From Spirochaetaceae bacterium (GTDB taxonomy: Bacteria > Spirochaetota > Spirochaetia > Treponematales > Breznakiellaceae), in assembly GCA_031277165.1 (NCBI GenBank), contig JAISLT010000013.1:1-41350 (forward strand): a stretch of 41,350 bases of DNA, given 5' to 3'. The position numbers and the translations under genes are program-made. The notes beneath the pieces were generated by a model. That model saw only the letters and a program-made list of their open reading frames with translations. It was not told the DNA's origin and did not search any database. Below are positions 4,024-40,668 of this stretch, one piece after another; position 1 is the first letter of the stretch, and every line of letters starts with the position of its first letter.

Positions 4024-4044
4024 CGGACGGCTCCTTTTTAAGCC

Positions 4045-4073
4045 CTTATACACCCCCGGCGGGATTTTGTCAA
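4045..4073 (-). promoter_or_regulatory. Sigma-70 promoter with palindromic spacer, lipoprotein copy 1
   Basis: On the minus strand, TTGACA (4068-4073), a 17-base spacer and TATAAG (4045-4050). The spacer contains CCCGCCGGGGG, a near-palindrome that could be an operator. The same arrangement precedes the other two full-length paralogues and the orphan remnant. Confidence 0.7.
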
Positions 4074-4164
4074 GACGGTATCGATTGACCTGTTGACAGC
4101 GGGTATAATGACCAATAGAAGCCCGCATAACCGGGGCGGATTGTGCAGTTTAAGGGCTTTTTGT

Positions 4165-4300
4165 TTAGTGTCTATCCACAAAGCCGGTTACTTTGTTAAC
4201 AGATCTTGCATTTTCTCGTTTAAATGCCGCAAAAACGTGTTTTTCAAGGGAGTTGCGATATTTGAGCCCATCATATGTCTACGTTATAAATAATCCATGT
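4165..4300 (+). repeat. MITE-like dispersed repeat, copy A (degenerate)
   Basis: Begins TTAGTGTCTATCCACAAAG and continues through GGTTACTTTG, CTTGCATTTTC and a degenerate CATATGTCTACGTTAT stretch. It matches the reverse complement of 12508-12636 over most of its length, with scattered changes. No coding capacity was seen. It occupies most of the gene-free stretch 4129-4354. Confidence 0.65.
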
Positions 4301-4354
4301 CTGTTCCATAGTGTCTTCAAAATATTTTCCCGATTTTAACCAAACTGAACCCCT

Positions 4355-5101
4355 CTATTTTTCTTCCATGGCCTCTATTTGTGGAGGCGTATGTTGACCT
4401 GGCAATAATTTGCCCCCCCATTCATTAACAAAAAAGGTCAAAAAACTGCTACATAATGCCGTTAACAGACAAGACAAGATGAGCATGCTTAAAGTAAATC
4501 TATTTTGTTTCTTTTTGCTTCTTTCTATCTTTTTTATGCGTTTTATCGCCAGGCGAAAAACATTATTTTTTTCAATCTCAACAACACTTTTTGACAAATC
4601 AGCTATCTTTTCAATCGCACTGTTGTACAATTTTACGGCTTCGGACATATCACCTTTACGTTCCTTCTTTTTTGCTTCCAGATACGTTGTTTTTATTTCC
4701 GATTTGCTCTTTCTTAAGAGTTCCAAGCTTATGATAGACTCATTAATACATTCCCGGTAATCGGGGTCTGTCGCAAGATCCTCCAGCAAGTCTGTCTTTT
4801 TATCGGATTCTTTTAACACGCTATTTATTGCAATCTTATAGGAATCTAAAATCGCCCTCTTCAAATGAGAATTTTTCGCCTGTTCAACCTCTTTAACGGC
4901 GTCATCGACATTTGTTATATTACAAAGGCTCCGGCTTATATGATGAAATAATGCATAAATTTCATTTTCAATATGCCGAGGCCGCGAGCCATTGTTTTCG
5001 ATAGTTGCCAATTCAAGAATTTCTTCCAAATCGGAGTGATACTCATTAAAAACCGACAGCAGTACTTCTTGATATTTCTTGTTTGTCAATGTGGAAGACA
5101 T
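4355..5101 (-). CDS. Uncharacterised alpha-helical protein with C-terminal membrane anchor
   Basis: A 248-residue protein I do not recognise. It is almost entirely helical and charged, with Lys/Glu-rich stretches (about residues 145-200, including SKKKQNR) that may form a coiled coil. A single hydrophobic segment follows (about 203-225, FTLSMLILSCLLTALCSSFL). The short tail should lie across the membrane. Residues 40-90 (ENEIYALFHHISRSL, HLKRAILDSYKIA) recall helical bundles seen in HEPN-like or toxin-associated proteins, but no catalytic motif is clear. The start is ATG 5101. It lies six bases after the stop of the 61-residue gene upstream, so the pair is probably one transcript. The segment is more AT-rich than the flanking lipoprotein genes, suggesting separate acquisition. 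Confidence 0.6.
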   Translation of the reverse strand: MSSTLTNKKYQEVLLSVFNEYHSDLEEILELATIENNGSRPRHIENEIYALFHHISRSLCNITNVDDAVKEVEQAKNSHLKRAILDSYKIAINSVLKESDKKTDLLEDLATDPDYRECINESIISLELLRKSKSEIKTTYLEAKKKERKGDMSEAVKLYNSAIEKIADLSKSVVEIEKNNVFRLAIKRIKKIERSKKKQNRFTLSMLILSCLLTALCSSFLTFFVNEWGGKLLPGQHTPPQIEAMEEK

Positions 5102-5107
5102 TTCTTC

Positions 5108-5293
5108 TTACCATTCTTTCAATATTTCCAGATTTTCTTTTTCTTTCTCTCTTCCTGATACATATTCGCTGAAGGTATAACCTCTTAAAAGAAAATCACT
5201 TGTCTGTCCGGCATTGTGAGGCAAAAATTGCTTTAGCTCATCATGCTCCTGTTTATATTTTAGATATTCTTTGGCCTTTTCAGATAAACCCAT
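5108..5293 (-). CDS. Small uncharacterised protein, first gene of a two-gene unit
   Basis: A small charged protein of about 61 residues (MGLSEKAKEYLKYKQEHDE to LEILKEW). The ATG at 5293 is chosen over the one at 5299 because AGGGGAGGAG sits at a better distance. TATACT at 5317-5322 on the minus strand could be a -10 box with a very short leader. The protein is predicted helical, with no signal peptide and no recognised motif. Its tight coupling to the 248-residue membrane-anchored protein downstream suggests the two act together, perhaps as a toxin-antitoxin or small regulatory pair. That is only a guess from gene order and size. Confidence 0.55.
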   Translation of the reverse strand: MGLSEKAKEYLKYKQEHDELKQFLPHNAGQTSDFLLRGYTFSEYVSGREKEKENLEILKEW

Positions 5294-5490
5294 GATCATC
5301 TCTCCTCCCCTTTATAGTATAGGTTAAATCACTATTAACCTTCATCTCCAACTTCCGCCCGCCTTCTTCCTCTCACTGTATGTTACTCGGTTCTTTGCGC
5401 TGTCAGTGTTGCCCAGTCCCATATCTGTTCCTCCCTTTGTCTGGGACAAGAGTACCAGAGTTTCTGTGGCCTATTCAAGGTGTGCCCGTT

Positions 5491-5712
5491 TTAATTCCTC
5501 TCCCGATGAACACCCCATATAATTCCAGGAGCCTGTCGCACTTCGTGGATTTTTTGCATATTCATGCAAAAAATCCCGGTTATCGGGCTCCGTTGGCAGT
5601 TTGCAGAGGATCGCAGGAAACCAGAAACAGGCAGGAAGAATCCCCAGGGGCGGGTATTCATAGTACCCCCATCGGAATTGGGGGAGATAAGCTTCGCCCT
5701 TTTTACAGCCAC
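5491..5712 (-). pseudogene. 5' remnant of a further lipoprotein gene copy
   Basis: Begins like copies 1 and 3 (GTG 5712, AVKRAKLISPNSDGGTMNTR). The similarity decays after about 20 further codons (PWGFFLPVSGFLRSS) and no lipobox is formed. At about 5610 the sequence passes directly into a palindromic repeat, and the open frame ends at 5491. Everything after the signal-peptide region is missing. Promoter and ribosome-binding site are retained, so a short RNA or peptide could still be produced. Confidence 0.7.
5527..5610 (+). repeat. Palindromic dispersed repeat, copy 1
   Basis: Contains AGGAGCCTGTCGCACTTCG followed by a perfect 13-base inverted repeat (5547-5559 and 5564-5576, arm GGATTTTTTGCAT, loop ATTC). 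CGGTTATCGGGC and GGCAGTTTGC come next. A closely matching copy lies at 19950-20092 in the trpD-trpC gap. It joins the remnant lipoprotein gene directly, so it may mark a recombination point. Confidence 0.75.
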
Positions 5713-5738
5713 CGGACAGCTCCTTTTGTGTATGTTCC

Positions 5739-5767
5739 TGTATACACCCCCGGCGGGATTTTGTCAA
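5739..5767 (-). promoter_or_regulatory. Orphan copy of the lipoprotein promoter
   Basis: TTGACA (5762-5767), a 17-base spacer with the same CCCGCCGGGGG core, and TATACA (5739-5744) on the minus strand. It reads into the truncated 5' remnant and then toward the two small genes ending at 4355. Confidence 0.6.
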
Positions 5768-5899
5768 GACGGTATCGAACACAGCCAAACCAACAATTCT
5801 CGGACTTTTTGCATGAAAATTTTCTAACCGGAGAATTGCTGCTTATGAAAAATACTGCCGAAACGTGACTCTGCCTCACATCGAATAATTACTTACATT

Positions 5900-7330
5900 T
5901 CAAAAATGAAGAAGAAATTCTTGAAGCTCCTGTAGAGTTTGGGGTCCGGGATACGGCCCTTCGGCACCAGCGGCAAAGTTTATTACTGCAAAAATCCGAA
6001 TCGGTTTTGTTTTACCTGTAATTGATGGCATTTCTTCTGTAATAAAGTATTTATTGATACGCATCCAGGTGTCTTCGGCAATAAGGATATCCGTTCCAAA
6101 AACTTCATTCATGGCCACGATACGGGAGGCAATGTTAACGGGATCACCTATCACCGTATATTCCATACGATCGCCGCTGCCAATCTGCCCGGCCACCACA
6201 ATGCCGGTGTTGATTCCACAACCAATCCGTACCGGCGGGTTTGCCGGATCGCTGGGGCTTCTGTCCTTGTTCATTTCCACCAGTGCCAGGCGCATCATAA
6301 GGGCCGATTTAACACAGTTAAACGCATCCTCCTCCGGGCTTCCGGCGGTGTACACCGTTCCCCAGTGGGCCATTACCGCATCCTCGATAAATTTGTCCAC
6401 CACGCCCCCTGTGGCGGTGACGCATTCAGCCATCTGGGTAAAGTACTCGTTGAGCCACCGGACTATTCTTCTAGCAGCATCTTCGCCGAAGGCCCTGGTA
6501 AAATTTTCGGATTTTTCGGTAAAGCCCCGGATGTCGGAAAAGAAAATCGTCGCATGCTTTGGACGTCCATCAAGATACCCGTCCCCGGAATTTTTCCGGT
6601 TTACCACCACCGAATAATTCCTTGCCGCCGCCCCGTGGCGCAGTTCCACCCGTATCAGTATTTCACTGATGGCGGCGTTGGGAGTTATGGTCCGTTCAAG
6701 ACTGCCCAGTCCCGTGCCGCCGTTTATGGTAATCAGGGCGGCGGGTTTTGCCGCCGTGGCGCTAAGGGTAAAAGACGCGGGGGCCTCGCTGATGCTGTAA
6801 TTGGGTGAATCCGGCGAAAAAACTTCGTTCAGGGTAAGCGGGTCCGAAGGGGTAATTGCGGTCAGGCTGGTGTCAAAATCCGCAAAGTATGCAATTCCCA
6901 AGTCCCCCTCATAGAGGATCCGCCCTTCGGCGGCGGTTTTGATCTTTATGTGGAGGGTTCCTTCGTCTCCCCCGGCGGATCCCGAAGGAATGTCCACGGC
7001 AAGATGGTTCAGGTCCTGCTGGGTAACGGTAAGGCCGGAAATCCCCGTGCCAAGGGTTTGGTTAAAAGAGCTTTCGACGATTAGTTCGTAACCCAGGGGA
7101 TTGTCCAGGGGGATGGAAAAACCGGTTTCCCCGGCCTTAAGACAGATATAGCCGTCCGTGCCCAGGGCCAGGGTGCCGTCCACGACGGCGGGCAGACCCA
7201 AGGTAATGCCGCCGGTTTGTTCTTCAAAAAAGGCCGCGGGATCATGGGTAAAGGGATCGCAGGAGGCCAGGAACAGCCAGAGAAGGGCGGGAAGAACCCC
7301 CCGGCGGCGGGACACTATTTCCGTTTCCAT
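5900..7330 (-). CDS. Chimeric lipoprotein-class III nucleotide cyclase
   Basis: One uninterrupted 476-residue frame joins two unrelated modules. Residues 1-245 match the N-terminal half of the neighbouring lipoproteins (signal GVLPALLWLFLASC with lipid Cys24, then one cadherin-like domain ending RNYSVVVNR). Residues 257-455 form a complete class III adenylate/guanylate cyclase domain. Metal Asp266 is in FFSDIRGF and Asp317 in KFIEDAVMAHWG. Asn399 and Arg403 are in GDPVNIASR. The usual Gly before the second metal Asp is Glu316. The first codons (METEIVS) replace the usual MNTR start. The ATG lies two bases after the stop of 7333-9654, and that gene's terminal GGGAG serves as a ribosome site. 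As a lipoprotein, its cyclase would be outside the cytoplasm with no ATP, so the chimera may be inactive or misrouted. Confidence 0.8.
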   Translation of the reverse strand: METEIVSRRRGVLPALLWLFLASCDPFTHDPAAFFEEQTGGITLGLPAVVDGTLALGTDGYICLKAGETGFSIPLDNPLGYELIVESSFNQTLGTGISGLTVTQQDLNHLAVDIPSGSAGGDEGTLHIKIKTAAEGRILYEGDLGIAYFADFDTSLTAITPSDPLTLNEVFSPDSPNYSISEAPASFTLSATAAKPAALITINGGTGLGSLERTITPNAAISEILIRVELRHGAAARNYSVVVNRKNSGDGYLDGRPKHATIFFSDIRGFTEKSENFTRAFGEDAARRIVRWLNEYFTQMAECVTATGGVVDKFIEDAVMAHWGTVYTAGSPEEDAFNCVKSALMMRLALVEMNKDRSPSDPANPPVRIGCGINTGIVVAGQIGSGDRMEYTVIGDPVNIASRIVAMNEVFGTDILIAEDTWMRINKYFITEEMPSITGKTKPIRIFAVINFAAGAEGPYPGPQTLQELQEFLLHF

Positions 7331-7332
7331 GG

Positions 7333-9654
7333 CTACTCCCAGTGGGCGGTGGTGTCGCCCACGCCGCCCACATCGTTGTAGCTCCAGCCGGAGTTATACT
7401 TCGCGTAAAGATTTAAACTTGCCCCGGCGGTGGCGTTACGTTTTTTACCGAGCAGCAAATAAACCGCGTGACCATCGCCGCCTGTGGCGGTATTTGCGTT
7501 ACTGTCACCGGTATCGCCGTAAATAAGGGCGTTTCCCTTTTTGGTAAACGCGACACCATTATCCGAGAGAACATACACCCCGCCGCCTCTGTACGCCGTA
7601 TTCCCCCGAATGACCGCGTCTCCGCTCATCTTAAAGGTACCATAAGTCACATACACCCCCCCGCCGCCGTAAGAGGATGATGAATCGGTATTGTGCTCAA
7701 TGGTTCCCCCGCTCATCTCAAAGGTGCCAGAGCTCACATACACCCCCCCGCCACCAAGCGTTCCTGAGGTGTTATGTGCAATGGTTCCCCCGCTCATCTC
7801 AAAGGTGCCAGTCACATACACCCCCCCGCCTCCTTCTGACGCGGTGTTATATGCAATGGTTCCCCCGGTCATCTCAAAGGTACTAGTATAGGTCACAAAC
7901 ACCCCGCCGCCACTTGTAGTGCTTCCCCCCGTAAGGGTAAGGTTGGCTCCCAAAGCTACCTTGTTGCCATCTGCTATACAGAGTACCCGTTTGTTTTTCC
8001 CTGCGGCGTTTATAACTCCCGCGTCCGATCCGGTTCCCTTGCCCTGCAGGACAATTTTGGGGTAGCCTGTTCCGCTGATGTCTATCATTTCGTCGGAAGT
8101 GCCCGTATCGGCGGTGATGGTTCCCGATATGGTGATGGTAAAGGTATCCGCCTGGGTCAGGCCGGAAGTCTTGACCACATCCAGGGCTTTTTTTACCGTG
8201 CCGTAGGGAGCGGCGGCGCTGCCGTCTCCGGATGTATCGCTTCCCGTCTGGGATACAAAAAACTCATCTACGCTCAGGGAGACCCTGCGCACCGTAATGG
8301 TGTAGGTTCTGGTTACGGTTTGGCTTCCCTTGGTAAGTCCTGCCGTAATCTGGATGGTATTAGAGGCGGGATGCACTTGGGGGATGGGAACCGGTACGGC
8401 CGCGCCGCTGGTAATTGCCTGGGAAGAACCGGTGTTCACCTTCATGCTCAGGGTTGCGCCTTCAACGCCGGCGAGGCCGCTTGTGGCGGTGATGGTCAAT
8501 GGAGTGGCGGTAAAGGGAACCGTTCCCAGGTCCTTGTTATAGGCGGCGGCGGACGAACGGTCGAAGTTCAGAGCCGGGGCGTAGCCCCCCGGACCGGTAA
8601 GGGTGAGGCCGGAGAGGCCCACTACCCAGACGGTAATGGCCGCGGTAGAACCCTTGTAGCTTACCACGACGGTTTTTTCTCCCGGAGTGGTAAAGTCGTA
8701 ATCCAAAATACTGTATTGGCCGGAACCTACAACGGCCTCCCCGCCGGTAGTGGAGGCTGTTAGGACCATCCCAGCGGGGCTAAACCCCGTATTTGGAGAT
8801 CCTTGCTGGACGTAGACTTTTGTGGTTGGTTCCGTGCTAATGGTGATGCCCTGAAAACTCCGGGAAACGCTGATCGTATATTCCCGGTAAGCCGTTCCGT
8901 GGGGGGCTTCCACCCGGATGGGCACAATACTCGACCCCGGCGGGGGCATTATGCGCAGGCTTCCTGAACCGGTTCCCAGGGTCTCTCCGTTTATAATAAT
9001 CCTGGCCGCGGAATTTTCCGCGGCGGCCGCAACGGTAAAAGAAACCGGCGCGTCGTTGACGCTGTAATTAAAAGCACCGGGGGCAAAGGGTTCATTCAGG
9101 TTCAGGTACGGATCAAGGGTTGACGAGACGCTTAAGCCGGTTCCTGCTTTCAGGCTGGTATCAAAATCGATGTAGGCAATTCCCAAGTCCCCCTCATAGA
9201 GGATCCGCCCTTCGGCGGCGGTTTTGACTTTGATGTGGAGGGTTCCTTCGTTTCTGTCTGTAATTCCCGGCGGCATATTCACCGCAAGGCGGTCCTCACC
9301 GGTCTGGGTAACGGTAAGGCCGGAAATCCCCGCGCCCATGGTCCGGGTAAAGGAGCTTTCAACGGTCAGGGCGTAGCCCCGGGGATTGTCCAGGGGGATG
9401 GAAAAACCCGTTTCCCCGGCCTTAAGGCAGATATAGCCGTCCGTGCCCAGGGTCAGGGTGCCGTCCACGACGGCGGGCAGGCCCAGGGTTATGCCGCCGG
9501 TTTGCTCGTCAAAAAAGGCCGCGGGATCATGGGTAAAGGGATCGCAGGAGGCCAGAAAAAGCCAGAGAAGGGCGGGAAGAACCCCCCGGCGGCGGGTATT
9601 CATAGTATTCCCATCGGAATTGGGGGAGATAAGCTTCACCCTCTTTACAGCCAC
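7333..9654 (-). CDS. Surface lipoprotein, cadherin-like domains plus beta-helix repeats (copy 3)
   Basis: A 773-residue paralogue of 1489-4023. The GTG start at 9654 follows AAAAAGGAG closely. ATG 9603 (MNTRRRGVLPALLWLFLASC) is the alternative, shorter start. After the lipobox LASC come the N-terminal beta domain, a cadherin-like sandwich (FNYSVNDAPVS to YREYTISVSR), an Ig-like segment (PTTKVYVQQGSPNTGF), a second sandwich ending TRTYTITVRR, and a beta-helix with five glycine-rich repeats. It ends in DTTAHWE. Long stretches are nearly identical to copy 1 at DNA level, which points to recent duplication or gene conversion. It has its own promoter and probably also drives the chimera, two bases downstream. 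Confidence 0.8.
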   Translation of the reverse strand: MAVKRVKLISPNSDGNTMNTRRRGVLPALLWLFLASCDPFTHDPAAFFDEQTGGITLGLPAVVDGTLTLGTDGYICLKAGETGFSIPLDNPRGYALTVESSFTRTMGAGISGLTVTQTGEDRLAVNMPPGITDRNEGTLHIKVKTAAEGRILYEGDLGIAYIDFDTSLKAGTGLSVSSTLDPYLNLNEPFAPGAFNYSVNDAPVSFTVAAAAENSAARIIINGETLGTGSGSLRIMPPPGSSIVPIRVEAPHGTAYREYTISVSRSFQGITISTEPTTKVYVQQGSPNTGFSPAGMVLTASTTGGEAVVGSGQYSILDYDFTTPGEKTVVVSYKGSTAAITVWVVGLSGLTLTGPGGYAPALNFDRSSAAAYNKDLGTVPFTATPLTITATSGLAGVEGATLSMKVNTGSSQAITSGAAVPVPIPQVHPASNTIQITAGLTKGSQTVTRTYTITVRRVSLSVDEFFVSQTGSDTSGDGSAAAPYGTVKKALDVVKTSGLTQADTFTITISGTITADTGTSDEMIDISGTGYPKIVLQGKGTGSDAGVINAAGKNKRVLCIADGNKVALGANLTLTGGSTTSGGGVFVTYTSTFEMTGGTIAYNTASEGGGGVYVTGTFEMSGGTIAHNTSGTLGGGGVYVSSGTFEMSGGTIEHNTDSSSSYGGGGVYVTYGTFKMSGDAVIRGNTAYRGGGVYVLSDNGVAFTKKGNALIYGDTGDSNANTATGGDGHAVYLLLGKKRNATAGASLNLYAKYNSGWSYNDVGGVGDTTAHWE
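7530..7915 (-). repeat. Beta-helix repeat array of lipoprotein copy 3
   Basis: Five tandem units of about 75-85 bases encoding GGGVYV, a variable turn, FxMSGGTIxHNT. This is the shortest array of the three paralogues. Confidence 0.7.
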
Positions 9655-9675
9655 CGGACAGCTCCTTTTTAAGCC

Positions 9676-9704
9676 CTTATATACCCCCGGCGGGGTTTTG
9701 TCAA
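9676..9704 (-). promoter_or_regulatory. Sigma-70 promoter with palindromic spacer, lipoprotein copy 3
   Basis: Minus strand TTGACA (9699-9704), 17-base spacer, TATAAG (9676-9681). The spacer core CCCCGCCGGGGG is shared with copies 1 and 4. Confidence 0.7.
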
Positions 9705-9743
9705 GACCTGCTTAGACAGCGGATATGAACGCCGCTTTTCGGA

Positions 9744-12263
9744 TTAGTCCCAGTTGGCGTCTGTCGTGGAATCCAGATTAACGCCCGCTCCGGCGGTGGA
9801 ATTGCGTTTTTTACCTGAGGATATGTTTACCGCGTGGCCGGTGCCGCCGGCGGTGTTTTCCAGGCCCGATGGATCGCCGCTGCCGTAAATAACGCCGCCG
9901 GTTTTGGTCAACCTGCCGCTGCTGCCGCCCACATAGACCCCGCCGCCGTTCTTGGCCGCGGTGTTCTCCCTGATGCTTCCGCCTTCCATGGTAAAGGTTA
10001 AGGTGCTGTGTACTCCGCCTCCATGACCGGATGACGTATTGTTTTGAATAGCAGCGCTGCCGCCCATAGTAAAGGTGCCGCTGCTTACAAAGACCCCGCC
10101 GCCGCCGTAGCCGGCATTACGCGCCATATTATTGCTAATGGTCCCTCCGGTCATCTCAAAGACACTGCCGGCGCTGGTTACATAGACTCCCCCGCCGCTG
10201 GACCCCTCATTGGTATCGACGCTTCCCCCGGTCATGGTAAAAACAGTGCCGCTGCCGCTGATGTTCACTCCGCCCCCGTTGGTGGCTGCTTCATTTTCCT
10301 CAACGGCCCCGCCGCTCAGGGTAAACTTGCCGCCGCTGTTTATGTAGACCCCCCCGCCGGAAGATGACACAGTATTATTGTTAACCCTTCCCCCGGTCAT
10401 CTCAAAGACAGTACCATTGCCGCTGAGGTACACCCCGCCCCCATTGGTGGCTGCTTCATTTTCCTCAACGGCCCCTCCGCCGCTCAGGGTAAACCTGCCC
10501 TTGCCGGTTACATAGACCCCTCCGCCGGAAGATGTCGCAGTATTATGGCTGATCCTTCCCCCGGCCATGGTAAAGACGGCGCCGTCGCCGCTGAGGTACA
10601 CTCCGCCGCCGTTGGCGGCGCTGCCTCCCGTAAGGGTAAGATTATCCCCCAGGCTTACCTTATTTCCTCCGGTGATATAGAGGACCCTTTTGCCCGTCCC
10701 CGAGGCGTCCAGAACACCGGCGTCCGCCCCGGCCCCCCTGCCCCGCAGGATAATTTGGGGATAACCGCTGCCCGAGATGTCCACTATTCCGTTTAAAGTA
10801 CCGGAAGCGCCGGTGATGGTTCCTGCGATGGTAATGGTAAAGGTGTCGGTTGAACTTAAACCGATGGTCTTGATCATACCCAGGGCTTTTTCGACGGTCC
10901 TGTAGGGATATTCCCCGCTGCCGTCTCCGGTGGTATCGCTTCCCGCTGACGATACAAAAAACTCCGAATTTTCCGAGGGATTTTTGCGGACCGCAATGGA
11001 GTAGCTTCTGCTTATACCGCCTCCGCCGGCTCCATCGTCGGCGGCCCCGGCGCTAATGGTGATGGTATTGTCGTACGGCTTCAGGGAAACATCCACGGCC
11101 TCGCCGCTTATGATGGGCTGGGGAGCGCCGCTGTTGACCGTCATGCTCAGGGCCGCCCCGGCCGCCCCCGTAAGGCCGCTTACCGCGGTAACAGTCAATG
11201 GATTGGTAGTAAAAGAAACCGTTCCCAGGTCATAGGTGTTGGTAGAGGGGTTGAATAGCAGGGGCGCAGCGTAGCCCCCCGGACCGGTAAGGGCAAGGCC
11301 GGAAAGGCCCGCCACCCAAACAGAAAAGGCGGCGGTCGATCCCTTGTGGCTTACCACGACGGTTTTTTTCCCCGGAGTGGTCAAGTCGTAGCTTATTGTG
11401 CATTGGGATAATGGCACGGAACTTACGCTGGTTTTGTCTATGACGATCAAACCCGTATCAATTAATCCCTCATTCGGTGCGGACTGTATGGGGTAGATTT
11501 TTTTTGCGGGCTCGGCGGTTATGCCAATGCCAAGAAAGGTCCGCGTGACCTCTATGGTGTACTCCCGAAAGGCCGCTCCGTGGGGAGCTTCCACCCGTAC
11601 CGGTATGGTACTGCTTCCCATGGGGGGCGCGATGGAACTGGTTGAAAAATGGTAACTTGTTTCGCCGTTTATGATGACCGCCGCATCGGGATTTGCCGCG
11701 GTTGCCGTAATGGTAAAGGAAGCGGGGGCATCGCCTATGTGGTACCGTAGAGTATCCCCGTTAAACGAAGACTCCGCAAAGAGGCTAAAGGGCTCTATCC
11801 CAGCCAGGGCGGTATCAAAATCTATGTACGCAATCCCCATGTTCCCCTCATAGAGGATCCGCCCTTCGGCGGCGGTTTTAACCTTTATATGAAGGATCCC
11901 CTCGTTCCCCACGGTGGAACCCGCGGGAATCTGAACCCGCACTGTTCCCGCGTCCTGCTGGGCAACGGTAAGGCCGGTAATTTCTACCCCGCCCCCTGAC
12001 GCGGTTTTGGTAAAGGAGCTTTCAACGGTCAGGGCGTAACCCAGGGGATTGTCTATGGGGATGGAAAAACCGGTTTTTCCGGCCTCCAGGCAGACATAGC
12101 CGTCCGTACCCGGGGCCACGCCGCTTTCCGGGATAACCGCTTGCACGGTGATGGTTCCTGTTTGTTCATCGAAAAAGGCCGCGGGATCCTGGGTAAAGGG
12201 ATCGCACGATGCCAGGACCAGGCAGAGAAGGGCAGGGAGGATCCCTCCGCGGCGAGTATTCAT
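9744..12263 (-). CDS. Surface lipoprotein, cadherin-like domains plus beta-helix repeats (copy 4)
   Basis: An 839-residue, more divergent paralogue. The start is ATG 12263 (MNTRRGGILPALLCLVLASC, lipid Cys20). Domain order follows the others: N-terminal beta domain, cadherin-like sandwich (NGDTLRYHIGDAPAS to FREYTIEVTR), Ig-like segment (PAKKIYPIQSAPNEG), second sandwich (ending ISRSYSIAVRK), and a beta-helix entered at GDGSGEYPYRTVEKALG. It has nine repeats, the most of the family, alternating two subtypes (FxMTGGxI and FTLSGGAVEENEAATN). It ends in TTDANWD. Here the upstream leader frame is not fused to the gene. It stops in an ATGA overlap with this start, so translation may be coupled. Confidence 0.8.
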   Translation of the reverse strand: MNTRRGGILPALLCLVLASCDPFTQDPAAFFDEQTGTITVQAVIPESGVAPGTDGYVCLEAGKTGFSIPIDNPLGYALTVESSFTKTASGGGVEITGLTVAQQDAGTVRVQIPAGSTVGNEGILHIKVKTAAEGRILYEGNMGIAYIDFDTALAGIEPFSLFAESSFNGDTLRYHIGDAPASFTITATAANPDAAVIINGETSYHFSTSSIAPPMGSSTIPVRVEAPHGAAFREYTIEVTRTFLGIGITAEPAKKIYPIQSAPNEGLIDTGLIVIDKTSVSSVPLSQCTISYDLTTPGKKTVVVSHKGSTAAFSVWVAGLSGLALTGPGGYAAPLLFNPSTNTYDLGTVSFTTNPLTVTAVSGLTGAAGAALSMTVNSGAPQPIISGEAVDVSLKPYDNTITISAGAADDGAGGGGISRSYSIAVRKNPSENSEFFVSSAGSDTTGDGSGEYPYRTVEKALGMIKTIGLSSTDTFTITIAGTITGASGTLNGIVDISGSGYPQIILRGRGAGADAGVLDASGTGKRVLYITGGNKVSLGDNLTLTGGSAANGGGVYLSGDGAVFTMAGGRISHNTATSSGGGVYVTGKGRFTLSGGGAVEENEAATNGGGVYLSGNGTVFEMTGGRVNNNTVSSSGGGVYINSGGKFTLSGGAVEENEAATNGGGVNISGSGTVFTMTGGSVDTNEGSSGGGVYVTSAGSVFEMTGGTISNNMARNAGYGGGGVFVSSGTFTMGGSAAIQNNTSSGHGGGVHSTLTFTMEGGSIRENTAAKNGGGVYVGGSSGRLTKTGGVIYGSGDPSGLENTAGGTGHAVNISSGKKRNSTAGAGVNLDSTTDANWD
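9890..10605 (-). repeat. Beta-helix repeat array of lipoprotein copy 4
   Basis: Nine tandem units of about 75-85 bases, each encoding GGGVY plus an FxMxGGxIxxN strand. Two subtypes alternate (EENEAATN units and NNNT units), suggesting past duplication of a two-unit block. Confidence 0.7.
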
Positions 12264-29289: not shown

Positions 29290-29392
<103 letters not shown>

Positions 29393-29645: not shown

Positions 29646-30482
29646 ATGGACTGGGATTTAACGGTATCGTCCAAGCATAAGCTGCTGGAGCTTAATTTAC
29701 GGGAACTGCTCCGGTACCGGGATCTTATTCTTATGTTTTTTGTGCGGGATTTTGCCACGGTCTATAAACAGACCGTGCTGGGTCCCCTGTGGTATATTAT
29801 CAGTCCCCTTTGTTCTACCCTGGTGTACGCCTTCGCCTTTGGTAATATCGCCGGTATCGGAACGGACGGAATACCGGTGCTGTTGTTTTACTACGGCGGC
29901 ACCATGCTCTGGTCGTATTTTTCCAACTGTCTGAACAGCGGGGCGAATATTTTTATTGCCAATGCGGGGGTGTTCGGTAAGGTATATTTTCCCCGGCTTT
30001 CCGTTCCCATCGCCACCACCTTTGGCGCGGTATTTAAGATGCTTATCCAGTTTGCCATGCTTATGGCTTTTTTGGCATATTACCTTGTCACCGGCAGCGC
30101 CGTCCGCCCCTCGGGGTATGCGCTGCTTTTTCCCGTGGTGGTCCTTTGGCTTGGGGCGCTGGGGACGGGGATTGGGATGATCTTTTCCGCCCTTACCACC
30201 AAGTACCGGGACCTGAACCATGTGCTTACCCTGGCCTTGGGCCTGGCCATGTACGTTACCCCGGTGATCTATCCCCTATCCCAGGTGCCGGAACGGTTTT
30301 ATTTCTTCTTCTACATTAATCCTGTCAGCGCCCCCATGGAACTGTTCAGGATATGGTTTTACGGGATAGGCCATGTGCCGCCGGCGATGACAATTAGCAG
30401 CATCGCGGTGACGGTGCTGGCCGTTTTCTTTGGGCTGGTTCTGTTTAGCAGCAACGAGCGTACCTTTATGGACGTTATATAG
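29646..30482 (+). CDS. Polysaccharide ABC exporter, permease (Wzm-type)
   Basis: A 278-residue ABC-2 family permease with six hydrophobic segments. It starts with the typical amphipathic RYRDLILMFFVRDFATVYKQTVLGPLWYIISPL and has the ALTTKYRDLNHVL loop that contacts the ATPase. It exports O-antigen, capsule or similar glycans in an ATP-dependent manner with its partner. The start ATG 29646 follows a weak TAGGG. It is the first gene of the locus, and its stop is directly followed by the ATPase ATG. Length and layout are normal for Wzm or KpsM-like permeases. Confidence 0.9.
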   Translation: MDWDLTVSSKHKLLELNLRELLRYRDLILMFFVRDFATVYKQTVLGPLWYIISPLCSTLVYAFAFGNIAGIGTDGIPVLLFYYGGTMLWSYFSNCLNSGANIFIANAGVFGKVYFPRLSVPIATTFGAVFKMLIQFAMLMAFLAYYLVTGSAVRPSGYALLFPVVVLWLGALGTGIGMIFSALTTKYRDLNHVLTLALGLAMYVTPVIYPLSQVPERFYFFFYINPVSAPMELFRIWFYGIGHVPPAMTISSIAVTVLAVFFGLVLFSSNERTFMDVI

Positions 30483-31277
30483 ATGGCCCTGGCGATAAAG
30501 ATAGAGCACCTTTCCAAGTATTACAAACTTGGGGTTATTAACAACGGCAGGCTCTGGCAGGACCTGCAAAGTTACTGCGCCCGGCTTTTACACCGGGAGG
30601 ACCCGAACAGGAAAATCGGGGAACAGACCGTGTACGACCGGGACGGATTCTGGGCGCTGTCGGACATTAACCTGGAAGTAGGGCAGGGGGACCGGCTGGG
30701 TATTATGGGGCATAACGGTGCGGGAAAATCGACCCTGCTTAAGATCCTCAGCAGGATCACCGTTCCCACACAGGGGTGTTTCCATGTTAAGGGAAGGATT
30801 GTGAGCCTTCTGGAGGTGGGGACCGGTTTTCATGGGGAGCTTACCGGCCGGGAAAACATCTATATGAACGGCGCCATCCTGGGGATGAAGCGCCGGGAAG
30901 TAACCCGCAAGCTCGAGGAGATCGTGGCCTTTAGTGAAATCGATCCCCACCACATTGACACGCCGGTTAAGCGGTATTCCTCGGGCATGTATGTACGGCT
31001 GGGCTTTGCCATTGCCGCCCACCTGGAGTGCGAGATCATGATCGCCGACGAGGTGCTGGCGGTGGGGGATTTGAACTTTCAGCAGAAGGCCACGGGTAAG
31101 ATGAGCGATCTGAGTACCAACCACGGCCGGACCGTGCTGTTTGTAAGCCACAACATCGGGGCGGTGGAAAAGCTGTGCAACAAGGGGCTTATTCTGGAAC
31201 AGGGCAAGGTGCTGCTGGGGCAGTGTCCCGTGGAAGAGGCCGTGGGAAGGTACAAGGAAATACTGGGGATTGCGTAA
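30483..31277 (+). CDS. Polysaccharide ABC exporter, ATPase (Wzt-type)
   Basis: A 264-residue ATPase. Walker A is GHNGAGKST (residues 76-84), the signature YSSGM is at 165-169, Walker B is IMIADE at 185-190, and the switch His is in VSHN. The N-terminal strand MALAIKIEHLSKYYKLG is typical of Wzt/TagH-like proteins. It ends soon after the nucleotide-binding domain and lacks the C-terminal glycan-binding domain of long Wzt proteins, so export is probably not coupled to a terminal modification of the chain. ATG 30483 follows the permease stop without a gap. Confidence 0.92.
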   Translation: MALAIKIEHLSKYYKLGVINNGRLWQDLQSYCARLLHREDPNRKIGEQTVYDRDGFWALSDINLEVGQGDRLGIMGHNGAGKSTLLKILSRITVPTQGCFHVKGRIVSLLEVGTGFHGELTGRENIYMNGAILGMKRREVTRKLEEIVAFSEIDPHHIDTPVKRYSSGMYVRLGFAIAAHLECEIMIADEVLAVGDLNFQQKATGKMSDLSTNHGRTVLFVSHNIGAVEKLCNKGLILEQGKVLLGQCPVEEAVGRYKEILGIA

Positions 31278-33621: not shown

Positions 33622-34095
33622 ATGGCTAGTTATGTATTGAACGAAGAACAAATGTTCAGCGATATTGCCGACGGCATCGCCATTGTAATTAACAGCGAAA
33701 CCGGCATCTATTACGGCATGAACAACCTGGGAACCTCGGTATTCGAGAACCTGCTCAACGGCGTTTCGACGGAGAATATTCTTGGGGCGCTTAAAAAACT
33801 AAACGGGGCGCCGGCGGATATGGATGAGCGGCTAAGCAACTTTATAGCTCTTTTGCTGGAGAATGGGATACTTATTAAGGGCGGCGGCGGCGATGCGCCT
33901 GCGGCGATCAGTGCGGAAGCGGCGGCGGCCAATAACTTTGCCCTGGAAGTGCGGGAATATAACGACGCCCAGGAACTGCTTCTGGCCGATCCCATCCACG
34001 AAGTGAAGGAAGATACCGGCTGGCAGCCCGATAAATCGGCGCTGGAAACCGACGAGGAAGTGGTCAAGGCAAAGGAAGATAAGGCTAAAGAATAA
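33622..34095 (+). CDS. PqqD-like protein with conserved-looking acidic tail
   Basis: A 157-residue protein. Residues 1-88 fit the PqqD fold (winged-helix peptide-recognition element): VLNEEQMFSDIADGIAIVINSETGIYYGMNNLGTSVFENL and a helical end. PqqD-like proteins usually bind a peptide substrate for a radical SAM or other modifying enzyme. The rest is a flexible Ala-rich linker and an acidic tail containing NDAQELLLADPIHEVKEDTG (residues 114-133), which looks like a defined short motif rather than filler. The start ATG 33622 has GGAGAGGA upstream. The stop shares one base with the next ATG (TAATG). Confidence 0.75.
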   Translation: MASYVLNEEQMFSDIADGIAIVINSETGIYYGMNNLGTSVFENLLNGVSTENILGALKKLNGAPADMDERLSNFIALLLENGILIKGGGGDAPAAISAEAAAANNFALEVREYNDAQELLLADPIHEVKEDTGWQPDKSALETDEEVVKAKEDKAKE

Positions 34096-36128
34096 TGATC
34101 AAAGTTTCGGTAATTATCCCTGTCTACAACACGGCGCCCTATTTGACTCGATGTCTTGACAGCGTTTGTGATCAAACGCTGACGGACATCGAGATACTCT
34201 GTATTAATGACGGCTCCACCGATAGGTCCCTGGAAATTCTGCGGGACTATGAAGGCAGAGACAGCAGGGTAAGGGTCATTAGCTTTGAGCAAAACAAGGG
34301 CGTTTCTGTAGCCCGCAATACCGGCATTGACGCTGCACAGGGCGAGTATATCGGGTTTGTGGACAGTGATGATTATGTGGATCTGGATTTTTATGAAAAA
34401 CTGTATACGGAAGTAAATGGAAATGGGGTGGAAATTGTAAAGGGGCTTGAGCTAAAGATCATTCACCCCGATGGCAGTATTAGTGTTGATAAACATAATG
34501 ACAAAATAAGAAAGAATAAAATACATTTTTGGACAGAATACACAAGTGCAATATTTAACCGTCAATTTATTCAGAGGAACAATATTTACTTCCCCGAAGG
34601 TTTGTTGGTTGGCGAAGATCCGTGTTTTACTCTAAAAGCGTCAATTCTGTCTAAAAGTATTCGGGTTATTGAAAGTGCCCAATATTATTATGTCAGAAGA
34701 GTAAACAGCTTAAACTCGGACATTTGGAATAAAGAAAAGATTCAGTCATACATAAAATATATAGATTATGTTGCCAATTTTGCGGAAAAAGCCGATCTTT
34801 CTCGAGGTGATTATAAAATCTTGTTTAAATGGCTGCTGGAAGATGCACAAAATACATGTAAAAACAAGGCTGGATCGAATAAAAATTATCAAAATTTATT
34901 TGAGCCGCTGTTTAGAAAATTGAAATGCATGGTTGGAATAGATTTGTTGTTTGATGCAACTATATTTCATGGTATTGAATCAAAAACTGATGCGCGAAGT
35001 GGTATTTTTTTTGTCGCATATAACATTCTAAAACAATTAAGTAAGAATAGTCAAATAAATATAACATTATACTTGGAATATTTTAACGCAGTTCTACGGG
35101 AGGCATGTAAAAAAGATGATCTTTTAAAAAAATTTGATATACTTTGTTTAAAGTATAAATCGTCTGTTAAAAATACCGGGTATATAAAAAATCCAAAATT
35201 TTGCCCCGACAGTTTTGATGCGTATATTAATGTTTCATGTTTTTCTTTGTTGTGCGGCGATGATATGGATCGAATTGTTAAATTTTATGTTTTACATGAT
35301 ACAACGCTATTGTTGTTAGATTATGGTGATGAAGGATGGCGTAAAAATCGAAAGGCATTTTGGAATTTTTACGATGATTCATTAACGAAAAATACATATG
35401 GCTTTTGTGTATCTGAATCCGCAAGGCGCGATTTCCTTCGATTTTTCCCTGTACTTGATCCTGCAAAGATGATTGTAACGCCCATAGCGACGGCCCGTAA
35501 ATTCAAACCAAACAGGGATATTGATAAATTAAATGAAATAAAAATGAAGTATAATATGTCCGCCTTGGATACTTATATATTTTCATTTAATTCATATAAC
35601 TTGCGCAAGGGGTTGATTTTTACCGTTGGATGCTATTTGAAGTTTATCGAAAGACATCGGATTAATAACCTGTGTTTTTTATCGGCCGGCGGTGGAGACG
35701 TTTCGTATTACAAAAAAAAAATAGAACAGAATTATGGGGAGCTTTTTCATAGATATAAGAACAGGATATTCATGATTGGGTATATCGATGATGAAGATCT
35801 TGAGATTCTTTACTCTCATGCGCTTTTTACTAGTTATTTAAGTGAGTACGAAGGTTTTGGCATGCCGCCGCTTGAAGCTATGAGCTGCGGTATTCCGGTA
35901 ATAACATCCAACACAAGCAGTTTGCCAGAAGTTGTCGGAGATGCCGCTGTTACAATTGATCCGTATGACGATGAGGCTTGTATTAAAGCTTTTGAGGATT
36001 TATATTTTGATAATATAATACGAAAAGAGTACATTGCAAAAGGCTTTGTGCGAGCGAAAATTTTTACCTGGGAAAAAACAGTAAATGTAATGGCTGACAA
36101 AATGATGAGAGTGTTAGACACGGTGTAA
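34095..36128 (+). CDS. Two-domain glycosyltransferase (GT2 + GT4 fusion)
   Basis: A 677-residue protein. The N-terminal GT-A domain, family 2, spans about residues 1-230: [21 protein letters not shown], and FVDSDDY with the metal-binding DxDD. The C-terminal GT-B domain, family 4, spans about 285-677, with [20 protein letters not shown] and [11 protein letters not shown], the donor-binding EX7E region. It probably adds two sugars in sequence on a lipid carrier in the cytoplasm. The GT4 half is paralogous to the next gene, with near-identical DNA around the donor-site motif. Base composition falls to AT-rich inside this gene, from about 34.4 kb. Confidence 0.88.
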
Positions 36129-36409: not shown

Positions 36410-37627
36410 ATGATGGATAAATTTAGAATGTTGTTTCAGGCTGATATATTACTGAAGGGGGAAATTAACGAAAATGAGCGAACGGGTATTTACTTTGTTA
36501 CGAAAAACTTGCTTGAGCAATTTAAAAAGGACAAAAGATTTGAGATAACATTAATATTCTTTTTTAATCCGATACCCAATGATGTCTTTGTTAGATTTAA
36601 ACAAAATGAGAAATTTAAAAATTTTCCAACAGTTCGTTTTTACCGAAATTTTGAGGTAAAAGGTATATCAAAGACGATTATTAATCCTATTATAAAGAAT
36701 AGTGATTATGATTTCTGTTTTTCAACAATAGGAGGAAGCCTTCCTGATATACAACTACCGTGTTTTGGTATGTTGCATGATGTCATTCCCTTTTTGTTTG
36801 CTGAATATTACGAAAAATCTGCCCGTCAAGAGGAAAATGATTTTTATCAATGTTCCAAAAAACATTTGAATCGCAATACTTATTATTTTTGTGTATCGAA
36901 TAGTTGTAAAAATGATTATTTGAAATTCTTTTCTGAACAATTAAACCCAAATCATATGATTGTAACACCAATCGCAACAATGCGTTCTTTTGTGTTGCAA
37001 CCTGATATGGGTAAATTGTCGAATTTTTTTAAACGGTATGGGGCAACCAAGATAAAAAGCAATCGGTATATCCTTAGCCTTTCAACTATAGAACCAAGAA
37101 AGAATATTCCTTTTACCATTAGGTGTTTTTCGGAATTTATTGATAAACATCACATAACCGATTTGTTTTTTGTTATTGGTGGAGGAAGTTGGGATTTTAT
37201 ATCCGTAACTATAAAGCAGTCTCTTGATTATGACATAGAAAAAGCATCGGCTACTTGTCGGGACAAAATAATTCGGCTCGGTTATGTTGCAGACGAAGAT
37301 GTAGAAATGCTTTATAGCCATGCCTTAATCTTTACTTTTATTTCAGAATACGAAGGCTTTGGCATGCCTCCACTTGAAGCAATGAGCTGCGGAACTCCGG
37401 TAATAACATCTAATACGAGTAGCTTGCCCGAAGTTGTCGGCGATGCCGCTATTATTATTGATCCGCATGATGCGGAAGCTTGTATTAATGCTTTTGAAAA
37501 TTTATATTTCAATGCCGACTTGCGTGAGGAATACAGTAAGAAAGGCATTAGTCGTGCTAAAATGTTCAGTTGGGAGAAGACTGCCAAGGTAATAACTGAA
37601 AAAATGTTGCAGGTGTATACCAAATAA
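36410..37627 (+). CDS. Family 4 glycosyltransferase
   Basis: A 405-residue single-domain GT-B enzyme that closely parallels the GT4 half of the preceding fusion. It has [45 protein letters not shown] (hinge) and [20 protein letters not shown] with [14 protein letters not shown]. It transfers a sugar from a nucleotide donor, and the acceptor is unknown. Two ATGs are adjacent (36410 and 36413), with TAAGGA upstream. It stands after the decayed fragment and probably arose by tandem duplication of the fusion gene's second half. Confidence 0.88.
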
Positions 37628-37645
37628 ATAACGAGGGTGTTTAAT

Positions 37646-38539
37646 ATGCTAACGAAAAATGTTATGAACAGGTATCACGATTGGCTTGAAGATCATAAAT
37701 TAATCGGGGGGGGGGGTGATGAATTGTTTCTCCGTTTATTTAGTATTCAAATTGATACTTGTTACAAACCCTTTGTAGTTGAATACAATACAACAACGGA
37801 GAAATTAGAAAGAATTTTTGCACATATAGAAGGGGAGTGGGAAAAATATGGCAAAGACGAGACGTATTGGTCTGTTTTGACAGATCCAAATTTCTTAAAA
37901 AAGGAACTAAATGATGTTGCTTTGGAAAATTTTTACAATTCCGGAAAAAATGACTTAAATCGAATTGAAATAACTTTACAAAGATGCGGGGAATGGGACA
38001 CTTTGCCAAAAGATTCTTGTTTGGAATATGGATGTGGTGTGGGACGGGTTACGTTTCAATTATCTTCCATCTTTAACTCTGTTTCTGGTATTGATATTTC
38101 GCCGGGACATATTGCGTTAGCCGGAAACCGTCTAAAAGATCTTGGTATAAAGAATGTATCTTTACGCACGATACATAAATTGAAAGATTTGCAATCCTTT
38201 GATAAATATAATTTTATTTATAGCGTAATTGTATTACAGCACAATCCGCCGCCGATAATAGCCTGTATTCTAAGGTTCTTTTTTTCGCATCTTAAAACAA
38301 ATGGGATAGTCATGTTTCAGATACCTGTTAATATAAAGGGCTATAAATTTACGGTCGACGAATACCTTGCCAAAATCCATGCGGTAAAAGGCATGGAGAT
38401 GCATATGTTGCCACAGAATGAAATCTTAAGAATTGCCAGAGAAAATGATTGTTGTTTACTTGAAGTTGCTAATGATGCCTGCATAGGCAGCTATTCTACA
38501 TCCATATCTCAAACTTTTCTTTTCAAGAAAATACTTTGA
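37646..38539 (+). CDS. Class I SAM-dependent methyltransferase with G11 tract
   Basis: A 297-residue enzyme. The nucleotide-binding loop is LEYGCGVGR (residues 126-134), followed by [13 protein letters not shown] and [16 protein letters not shown], typical Rossmann methyltransferase motifs. In this locus it probably methylates a sugar and may cap or decorate the glycan. Codons 21-24 (GGGG) are encoded by a run of 11 G. Loss or gain of one base would shift the frame near the start and switch the enzyme off. In this sequence the frame is on. The start ATG 37646 has GAGGG upstream; GTG 37637 is also possible. Its stop overlaps the next gene. Confidence 0.8.
37706..37716 (+). repeat. Intragenic G11 homopolymer
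   Basis: Eleven consecutive G inside the methyltransferase gene at codons 21-24. It is of a length known to be slippage-prone in bacterial phase-variable genes. Confidence 0.95.
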
Positions 38540-39333
38540 ATAATATAGAAAATACATCGCCAAAGTTTTCCATCATCACAGTTTGCCTTAACGATCCGAA
38601 TTTAGAACAAACCTGCGAAAGCATAGTTAATCAGTCTTTTCAGGATTTTGAATGGATTGTAATTGACGGTGGTTCGGATCGGCAAACGCAGGATATATTT
38701 GAAAAATATAAATATCGCATGAACTATTTTGTTTCTGAAAAAGACAACGGTATATATGATGCAATGAACAAGGGCATTATACAGGCCCATGGTGAATGGT
38801 TTAATTTTATGAACGCAGGGGACAGATTTTATGACAGCGATATATTGAAATTTGTTGTAGGAAAGATTAACGAAGTTAAAATGGATGATAAACCAGATAT
38901 ATTTTATGGTGATGATATTAGTAAAAAAGAAAATGGAATTTTTGTCAGTGATTTACCCTGTTGCATTGATAAATATTTTATGTATAAGGCAACACTTAGA
39001 CATCAGGCCTCATTTATTGTTGCATCATCTTTCAAAAGAATAGGAATATATGATAGTTCATTAAGGGTTTGTTCTGACTATAAATGGTTTTTATGTGCAC
39101 TTAAGCATGGCCTTGAATTCAGAAAAATTACGGGTTGTCCCTTGGCAATTATGGATGGCAACGGAATTGGATCACAGATGACGCATATTCATCTGGAGGA
39201 ACGCAAGTGTGTCCAAAGAGATTTTTTTTCATCGGATGAATTGCCGGCTTTTGCAGTAAGATTAAGCAAGGAAAAGCGTTTAATTGCTATTAATTTTATT
39301 GCCAGTAAGCGGGCGGAAAATAAAAATCACTAG
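38536..39333 (+). CDS. Family 2 glycosyltransferase
   Basis: A 265-residue GT-A enzyme with FSIITVCLND, IVIDGGSDRQTQDIFEKY, EKDNGIYDAMNKG and the MNAGDRF motif in place of the usual DxD. This pattern is typical of WcaE/WcaA-like family 2 enzymes in exopolysaccharide loci. The start is TTG 38536, overlapping the methyltransferase stop as TTGA; no other good start is present before the first strand. It continues the compact, coupled arrangement of the locus. Confidence 0.82.
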   Translation: MNNIENTSPKFSIITVCLNDPNLEQTCESIVNQSFQDFEWIVIDGGSDRQTQDIFEKYKYRMNYFVSEKDNGIYDAMNKGIIQAHGEWFNFMNAGDRFYDSDILKFVVGKINEVKMDDKPDIFYGDDISKKENGIFVSDLPCCIDKYFMYKATLRHQASFIVASSFKRIGIYDSSLRVCSDYKWFLCALKHGLEFRKITGCPLAIMDGNGIGSQMTHIHLEERKCVQRDFFSSDELPAFAVRLSKEKRLIAINFIASKRAENKNH

Positions 39334-40018
39334 AAATAAACTTGTTTCCATCTTAATTCCTGCGTATAACGCTGAGAAATATATTGCCGAAGCAATAGAT
39401 TCTGTGCTTTCGCAGGATTATCAAAATAAAGAGATAATCGTGATAAATGACGGCAGCACCGATTGCACTTTGAAAATTCTGGAACAATACAAAGGGGTAA
39501 TCAAAGTCATTTCAAAAAAGAATGAAGGTGTAGCCGCCGCTCGTAATACAGGATTGGCGGCGGCGAACGGTGATTATATAGCCTGGCTTGATGCGGATGA
39601 CTATTATTGCGCCGGAAAAATTCCGGCGCAGGTGAAGTATTTGGACGAACACCCTGATGCGAAAATAGTTTTTACAAAATATGAAAATTTTTTTGAAGGC
39701 GAACCAAGCGCGGATGTTCTGATTAGAATTAAACTGGAAAAAAATAACCGCTATTGTCAGCCCACGTCTATGTTTAGACGGGAATTAACCGCCAAAGTAG
39801 GCAATCATGATATTTCTTATACGATTGGAGAAGATATTGACTGGATTTTTCGAGCGAAGATTATGTATAATGTTAATCTTGACCATTACATTGATATTCC
39901 TTATTATCGCCGAAGATTTCATACAAATAATTCAATACTCAATATACAATTGGATAAAAACTATAACAACCGTATTATGATGAAATATCTTAAACAAAAA
40001 AGAGAAATTGGGAAATGA
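39284..40018 (+). CDS. Family 2 glycosyltransferase
   Basis: A 244-residue GT-A enzyme: VSILIPAYNAEKYIAEAIDSV, VINDGSTD, EGVAAARNTGLAAANGDYIAW and LDADDY for metal and donor binding. The start is uncertain. The frame opens with TTG 39284 inside the previous gene, a second TTG lies at 39299, and the conserved fold begins about residue 20. The true start may be a non-standard codon near 39320, after GGCGGAAAA. Downstream, its stop overlaps the next gene as ATGA. Acceptor and sugar unknown. Confidence 0.8.
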   Translation: MLLILLPVSGRKIKITRNKLVSILIPAYNAEKYIAEAIDSVLSQDYQNKEIIVINDGSTDCTLKILEQYKGVIKVISKKNEGVAAARNTGLAAANGDYIAWLDADDYYCAGKIPAQVKYLDEHPDAKIVFTKYENFFEGEPSADVLIRIKLEKNNRYCQPTSMFRRELTAKVGNHDISYTIGEDIDWIFRAKIMYNVNLDHYIDIPYYRRRFHTNNSILNIQLDKNYNNRIMMKYLKQKREIGK

Positions 40019-40668
40019 TCAGTGTTATTATTCCGGTATGGAATGGGGAAAACTATCTTGCAGAAGCTGTAAATAGCGTTAATCGGCAAAATTCAGATAC
40101 TGAAATCATTGTTGTGGATGATGGATCAACTGATAATACAGCAAAATTGGCCAAGTCCTTTGGCTGCCGAATTGTTTCGATACCACACAAGGGTTCATCC
40201 GTGGCGCGTAATGTAGGGTTAACAGTTGCAAATGGTGATACTATTATGTTTCTTGATCATGATGATGTTTTAACCGAAGGGTCGCTTGATCGTTTGGATA
40301 AATCATTGATCAGTGGCATTGATTTTGTTTCTGCAAAAGTAAGAGATTTCTTATCACCCGAGTTATCAAACAGCGAGAAATATAAATTGGTTCCAAGGAA
40401 GAAGGCATATGGCGGGTTATTAACCGGTGCGTATCTTTTTAGACAATCTGTTTTTGTAACGGTTGGCGGTTTTAATGAAAGACTTATGACTGGAGAATGT
40501 ATCGATTTATTGTTTCGCTGTTCCGATCTAAAATTGAAGGAATTGAGATTGGATTTTATTTCGGCGCATCGACGTTTACACCTTTTTAATAAAGGCCGCA
40601 TTATGCGGACCCAGGAAAATAAAGATTATTCGGCGATTTTAAGAGAAAAAATAAAAAAAGGGGAGTAA
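40015..40668 (+). CDS. Family 2 glycosyltransferase
   Basis: A 217-residue, rather short GT-A enzyme with MISVIIPVWNGENYLAEAVN, VVDDGSTDNTA, GSSVARNVGL and FLDHDDV (a DHDD variant of the DxD motif). TGAYLFRQSVFVTVGGFNE is the usual acceptor-side helix. The C-terminus (RRLHLFNKGRIMRTQ) resembles small glycosyltransferases found in peptide- or glycan-modification loci. The ATG 40015 start overlaps the preceding stop by four bases. The next gene, a radical SAM protein, starts five bases after its stop. Confidence 0.82.
   Translation: MISVIIPVWNGENYLAEAVNSVNRQNSDTEIIVVDDGSTDNTAKLAKSFGCRIVSIPHKGSSVARNVGLTVANGDTIMFLDHDDVLTEGSLDRLDKSLISGIDFVSAKVRDFLSPELSNSEKYKLVPRKKAYGGLLTGAYLFRQSVFVTVGGFNERLMTGECIDLLFRCSDLKLKELRLDFISAHRRLHLFNKGRIMRTQENKDYSAILREKIKKGE

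Follow-up and report, generated by a model that had tools for sequence, protein, structure and literature searches.

A tract of exactly 11 consecutive G's near the 5' end of a methyltransferase gene, in a glycan-export operon of an uncultured spirochete, probably marks the gene as a translational contingency locus, that is, as a phase-variable methyltransferase. We put the probability of this reading at roughly two in three. Slippage of the tract within the population, switching of expression, the substrate of the enzyme, and the effect on the cell are what we infer on this basis. The tract lies in the window—the whole stretch of DNA analyzed here, which is an entire contig of 41,350 nucleotides (C104) from a 2.48-Mb genome in 123 contigs that is 82% complete (G000).

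A Long G Tract in AT-Rich Coding DNA

How far does the tract depart from chance? Read directly from the sequence, it occupies positions 37706–37716 of the + strand (hereafter, G11) and supplies codons 21–24 (GGG GGG GGG GG(T)) of an open reading frame (ORF) that begins at ATG 37646. It is in frame with the full 297 amino acids of that ORF, just where an earlier note on this DNA had placed it. The G+C content is 34–36% (0.35) across 34.1–41.3 kb of the window, and, apart from a C14 at the contig end, the other G or C runs of this region reach at most 5 bases; the number of runs of at least 11 bases expected in it is ~0.001. Given four consecutive glycine codons, local codon usage would place GGG at the first three with a probability of only 0.007. 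G11 is far beyond chance in the surrounding 35% G+C DNA, and it has what marks a contingency gene: a homopolymer of at least 8 bases within an ORF, longer than chance would provide.

Across the whole genome, there are 49 G or C runs of length 9, 17 of length 10, and 4 of length 11, and the longer ones comprise 13 of length 13–24 (contig-end runs counted) plus one contig end of 71. No 9- or 10-base run falls in DNA below 48% G+C, and these runs thus look like compositional background. G11 is the sole run of 9–11 bases in AT-rich DNA genome-wide; the remaining AT-rich runs are 14–24 long. That G11 is shorter than the genome's 13–24-base class counts against reading it as a contingency locus.

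A Predicted Class I Methyltransferase in an ABC-Exporter Glycan Operon

What does the gene encode? The ORF (37646–38539, + strand) matches Pfam Methyltransf_31 (E = 5e-12), Methyltransf_23, and Methyltransf_25 (PF13847 and others), and contains motif I (GCGVGR) plus the family motifs VLQHNPPP and EMHxLPQ; comparison with the homologs gives invariant columns. Its AF2 model has a class I methyltransferase fold (pLDDT 84.9, pTM 0.83), and a Foldseek search with this model returned ChlM, NTMT1, and UbiG. Motif I, the Rossmann domain, and the modeled fold together identify the predicted product as a class I SAM-dependent methyltransferase; no NCBIfam equivalog model reaches its cut-off against it. 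Residues 1–39 of the model mostly have a pLDDT below 50, sequence conservation with homologs begins at about residue 31, and predicted order begins at about residue 40. The tract therefore falls in a short, apparently dispensable leader.

The gene is part of an ABC-exporter glycan operon, all of it on the + strand. Upstream lie a Wzm-type ABC-2 exporter permease (29646–30482; Pfam ABC2_membrane, with the NCBIfam galactan Wzm model below cut-off) and a Wzt-type exporter ATPase (30483–31277; Pfam ABC_tran, with NCBIfam Wzt/TagH below cut-off), then a two-domain (GT2 + GT4) glycosyltransferase (34095–36128) and, as the immediate neighbor, a GT4-type glycosyltransferase (36410–37627; Pfam Glycos_transf_1, E = 5e-27). 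Downstream are three family 2 glycosyltransferases matching Pfam Glycos_transf_2, of which one overlaps the methyltransferase stop (38536–39333) and the others follow at 39284–40018 (E = 9e-39) and 40015–40668 (E = 3e-27), and a radical SAM gene cut by the contig end (40673–41350; Pfam Radical_SAM, E = 2e-7). Judging solely by this neighborhood, the substrate would be a sugar of the exported glycan.

Homologs of the methyltransferase are 31–54% identical to it. The nearest belong to the Treponema metagenome-assembled genomes (MAGs) Im510_bin3 (49–51%) and Ncb351_bin46 (54%, partial); another, 43% identical, sits on plasmid CP026659 of Deltaproteobacteria bacterium Smac51, from a cockroach hindgut, also in a glycan/ABC locus. 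None of the homologous genes (loci L161–L244), that of Im510_bin3 included, has a G or C run of at least 9 bases. The tract is thus not needed for catalysis and, as in a contingency gene, is no part of the conserved gene. Class I SAM methyltransferases of exported-polysaccharide loci, such as those of Smac51 and Im510_bin3, share 43–51% identity with the window's enzyme over the catalytic part, along with motifs such as EMHxLPQ, and the Smac51 gene likewise has glycan and ABC-transporter neighbors. Unlike the window's gene, these are without the homopolymer and usually carry an N-terminal segment of ~70 residues (AYRLLLGREPE...), which most homologs have and the window's enzyme lacks. The comparison set comprised one genome per species; a tract-bearing ortholog was sought in two genomes of the same genus, and the methyltransferase itself is absent from both. 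No relative was found in phages.

How One-Base Changes Would Switch the Gene

How might the tract act? Translation of the methyltransferase would start at ATG 37646, which lies 18 nt past the stop of the upstream gene in a frame open into the methyltransferase, with a Shine-Dalgarno sequence of its own (GAGG, 37633–37636, + strand; 9-nt spacer; duplex energy -6.5 kcal/mol), and would proceed through G11. Slipped-strand mispairing at replication would gain or lose G's. Tracts of 8, 11, or 14 G's would keep the frame open, and other lengths would stop translation within about 45 codons. The frame from ATG 37646 ends after 43 codons with 10 G's and after 24 codons with 12, compared with 297 for the assembled length; counted instead from an in-frame GTG at 37637, another possible start, the frames end after 46 and 27 codons. 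The proposal in the earlier note that a change of one base terminates the protein early is borne out by these lengths, and is valid only for a start at ATG 37646. A clone would then produce the methyltransferase at some times and not at others, in a switch that is stochastic and reversible. The target of the enzyme is probably the polysaccharide that the operon's Wzm/Wzt transporter exports, which it would methylate.

Similar Tracts in the Same Genome and Family

Do comparable genes carry comparable tracts? On contig C103 of the same genome, a Methyltransf_23 gene adjoining a sugar-nucleotide epimerase/dehydratase gene has an in-frame C15 at codons 7–12, and a Methyltransf_23 gene from a sister genus in the family (genome G011) has an in-frame C18. 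The 8.8 kb of Im510_bin3 that holds the methyltransferase homolog also contains a radical SAM/SPASM gene split by a G14 (off) and a hexapeptide acyltransferase gene with a C15 directly after its ATG. Four tandem cytidylyltransferase genes of the CMP-sugar synthetase type (genome G005, contig C9; L275 3188–6382) each have a poly-C tract of C14–C16 before them; two of these tracts directly follow an ATG (ATG-C14), which, as assembled, does not share the frame of the ORF. Several surface-glycan genes of the family thus carry long poly-G/C tracts, with the frame on in some and off in others. This comparison supports the contingency locus, and with it the earlier note's view of the gene as phase variable; its off state may not be clean.

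Tracts of at least 11 bases are also frequent in the family at large, with a median of 5.6 per Mb for 24 genomes of the family vs. 0.74 per Mb for 15 genomes from the order's other families (P = 6e-4), in a comparison where base composition and sequencing method were uncontrolled. In a closed family genome (4,059,867 bp), runs of 9, 10, and 11 bases number 22, 4, and 1, and there is a separate group of 12–21, plus runs of 40 and 61, so that the length distribution is two-peaked, as in the window's genome. The 12–21 group of the closed genome is mostly intergenic, upstream of large, often lipoprotein-like ORFs. Because a finished genome has the same tract pattern, assembly artifact is unlikely as its general cause.

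Several genera of the family share a recurrent intergenic element (L128, L296, L348, L354, and L356; also L102, L105, and L124), which consists of a poly-C of about 12–21 followed by GATAGGTTTACTAGGATATAA and lies, in the closed genome, 70–190 bp upstream of large ORFs that are often lipoprotein-like. A variant in the window's genome has C17–C24 followed by (AT)ATATAGCG. The element looks like a promoter-type phase-variable module. Enrichment of an ATG directly before poly-C, considered across the family (98 genomes), did not rise above a reversed-pattern control; it was high in genomes G437 and G376.

Reliability of the Assembled Tract Lengths

Can the assembled length of G11 be trusted to the base? 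In the same assembly, a C11 in the housekeeping gene clpA (contig C7; L072 2999–3009) puts the Clp_N part in one frame and the AAA part in another, which reflects either a length error in sequencing or assembly or real variation in that gene. Assembled tract lengths may thus be off by one, which makes the on state of the methyltransferase tentative: the frame is open in the assembled sequence, as the earlier note had it, but with clpA broken in the same assembly, that state is uncertain. A C9 in L084, considered as a further frameshift, most likely marks two overlapping genes.

Long poly-G/C stands at the ends of many contigs or no more than 100 bp away from them (contig C11 at positions 1–71, the end of contig C3, and contigs C67 and C112 in the window's genome; likewise in G011 and G005). 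We set such breaks aside as a sign of length polymorphism, since most of them show G at a right end or C at a left end, and sequencing chemistry can give rise to this orientation. The C14 at the window's right end has the opposite orientation to the usual breaks, in what is one case and weak.

Alternative Explanations of the Tract

Does translation have to pass through the tract? An in-frame TTG (codon 27; 37724–37726, + strand) could itself be the start, with the G tract and the TGAT after it as an unusually strong Shine-Dalgarno sequence. The length of the tract would then alter neither the frame nor the start spacing, and the gene would be no on/off switch and at most tuned. The tract and its flank (GGGGGGGGUGAU) pair with the whole anti-Shine-Dalgarno tail at -17.1 kcal/mol, whereas the other starts of the operon give only -0.5 to -8.5 kcal/mol, and the spacer from GGGGGGGGUGAU to TTG, counted from the last G, is 7 nt. 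An ORF beginning at TTG 37724 retains every methyltransferase Pfam match and the whole conserved part, in keeping with the late onset of conservation and order described above. Leader residues 1–20, putatively coding, show no detectable similarity to the homologs' N-terminal segment, and a kinship of this 20-residue leader with the N-terminal helix of the homologs was dropped on the same grounds (P = 0.26). There is also a precedent, in that the Treponema pallidum tp0126 ORF, once drawn across a poly-G, needed redefinition (PMC7864442). Against this stand an ATG with its own Shine-Dalgarno sequence, an open frame, and a position 18 nt past a stop in a tightly packed operon; moreover, TTG is a weak start codon, and 11 G's are more than a Shine-Dalgarno sequence needs. 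We regard a TTG start as unlikely. Were it used, the off states would be leaky or the switch absent, because a complete catalytic domain would be made at any tract length. The design described in the earlier note stands as far as it consists of a homopolymer close to the 5' end of a methyltransferase gene in a glycan locus, with the frame open; a TTG start could bypass the tract. It is conceivable, if rather doubtful, that the tract has two jobs—frame shifter for a long form from ATG 37646 and Shine-Dalgarno sequence for a short form from TTG 37724—in which case slippage would toggle two N-terminal forms or expression levels rather than on and off. With one base more, a TGA immediately 5' of TTG 37724 terminates the long frame, and re-initiation in this 12-G state would be favored.

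Could the tract be there for reasons other than switching a reading frame? A fixed or neutral tract would be an accidental or slowly drifting homopolymer that slips now and then and is not kept for switching, and runs of 9–11 bases are indeed common in the GC-rich coding DNA of this genome, the C11 of clpA among them. Yet every other run of this size is confined to DNA with a G+C content of 48% or more, and G11 alone sits at 35%, where the expectation of ~0.001 makes a neutral origin quite improbable. The promoter-spacer switches of the T. pallidum tpr and tp0126 type suggest another role, here for an internal promoter, and in relatives of the window's spirochete, poly-C tracts flanked by promoter-like sequence do often precede genes. 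However, no -35/-10 pair spans G11, the tract was not found between or next to such elements as it is in T. pallidum, and its flanks are unlike the recurrent promoter-type flanks; we consider this role highly improbable. The translational contingency locus is the reading we prefer.

Known Systems and Significance

How does such a locus compare with established ones? Among host-adapted pathogens, phase variation of surface glycans through poly-G is a classic theme, and the window's spirochete family occurs in termite guts. The literature searched yielded no account of phase variation for this family, nor of the poly-G glycan kind for termite-gut spirochetes. If the switch is real, these symbionts generate random diversity in their surface polysaccharides in a host without adaptive immunity, which would point to phages, protist partners, or neighbors as the selecting force.

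In Campylobacter jejuni, cj1426 encodes the capsule heptose 6-O-methyltransferase and is phase variable through a poly-G tract, which switches heptose 6-O-methylation; the mutation rate reported for either direction is about 2e-2 (PMC8437040). Like the window's gene, it has its poly-G within the methyltransferase ORF of a surface-polysaccharide locus, and one-base changes switch the frame; the window's gene differs in coming from an uncultured spirochete and in that a start downstream, served by the tract as its Shine-Dalgarno sequence, is possible, and the two are likened by function. The poly-G tracts of T. pallidum include those of tprE/G/J/L and tp0126 and in-ORF ones such as those of tp0798 and tp0969; among 17 with at least 8 bases, 76% were clearly variable in length (PMC7864442), which speaks for the contingency reading. 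T. pallidum belongs to the same order and, like the window, has poly-G of at least 8 bases, some of it in ORFs; its tracts have mostly been shown to vary in vivo. Its best-studied tracts lie in promoters of outer-membrane protein genes, whereas the window's is internal to an ORF of a glycan locus, and no promoter-like pair flanks it on both sides. The functional analog is cj1426, and the T. pallidum poly-G switches are phylogenetic neighbors.

Other Repeats and Repetitive Genes in the Window

The window contains further repeats. The C14 at the contig end (41337–41350, + strand), possibly longer in full, lies within the radical SAM ORF, is in frame so far, and is a candidate second variable tract. 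In Im510_bin3 (L165), the G14 interrupts a different radical SAM gene, so this gene type may also be phase variable; the radical SAM homologs in relatives have no tract of at least 8 bases. A perfect (CT)39 dinucleotide repeat at 29305–29382, about 264 bp upstream of the start of the Wzm-type permease, may be a second variable element, one that controls the operon for glycan export. At the other end of the window, four consecutive large ORFs of 879, 476, 773, and 839 amino acids (1489–12263, - strand) share a lipoprotein-like N terminus (LASCDPFT.DPAAFF), most with a repeat-rich body. The 476-amino-acid ORF, its translation read by eye, continues into a segment resembling a nucleotide-cyclase domain.
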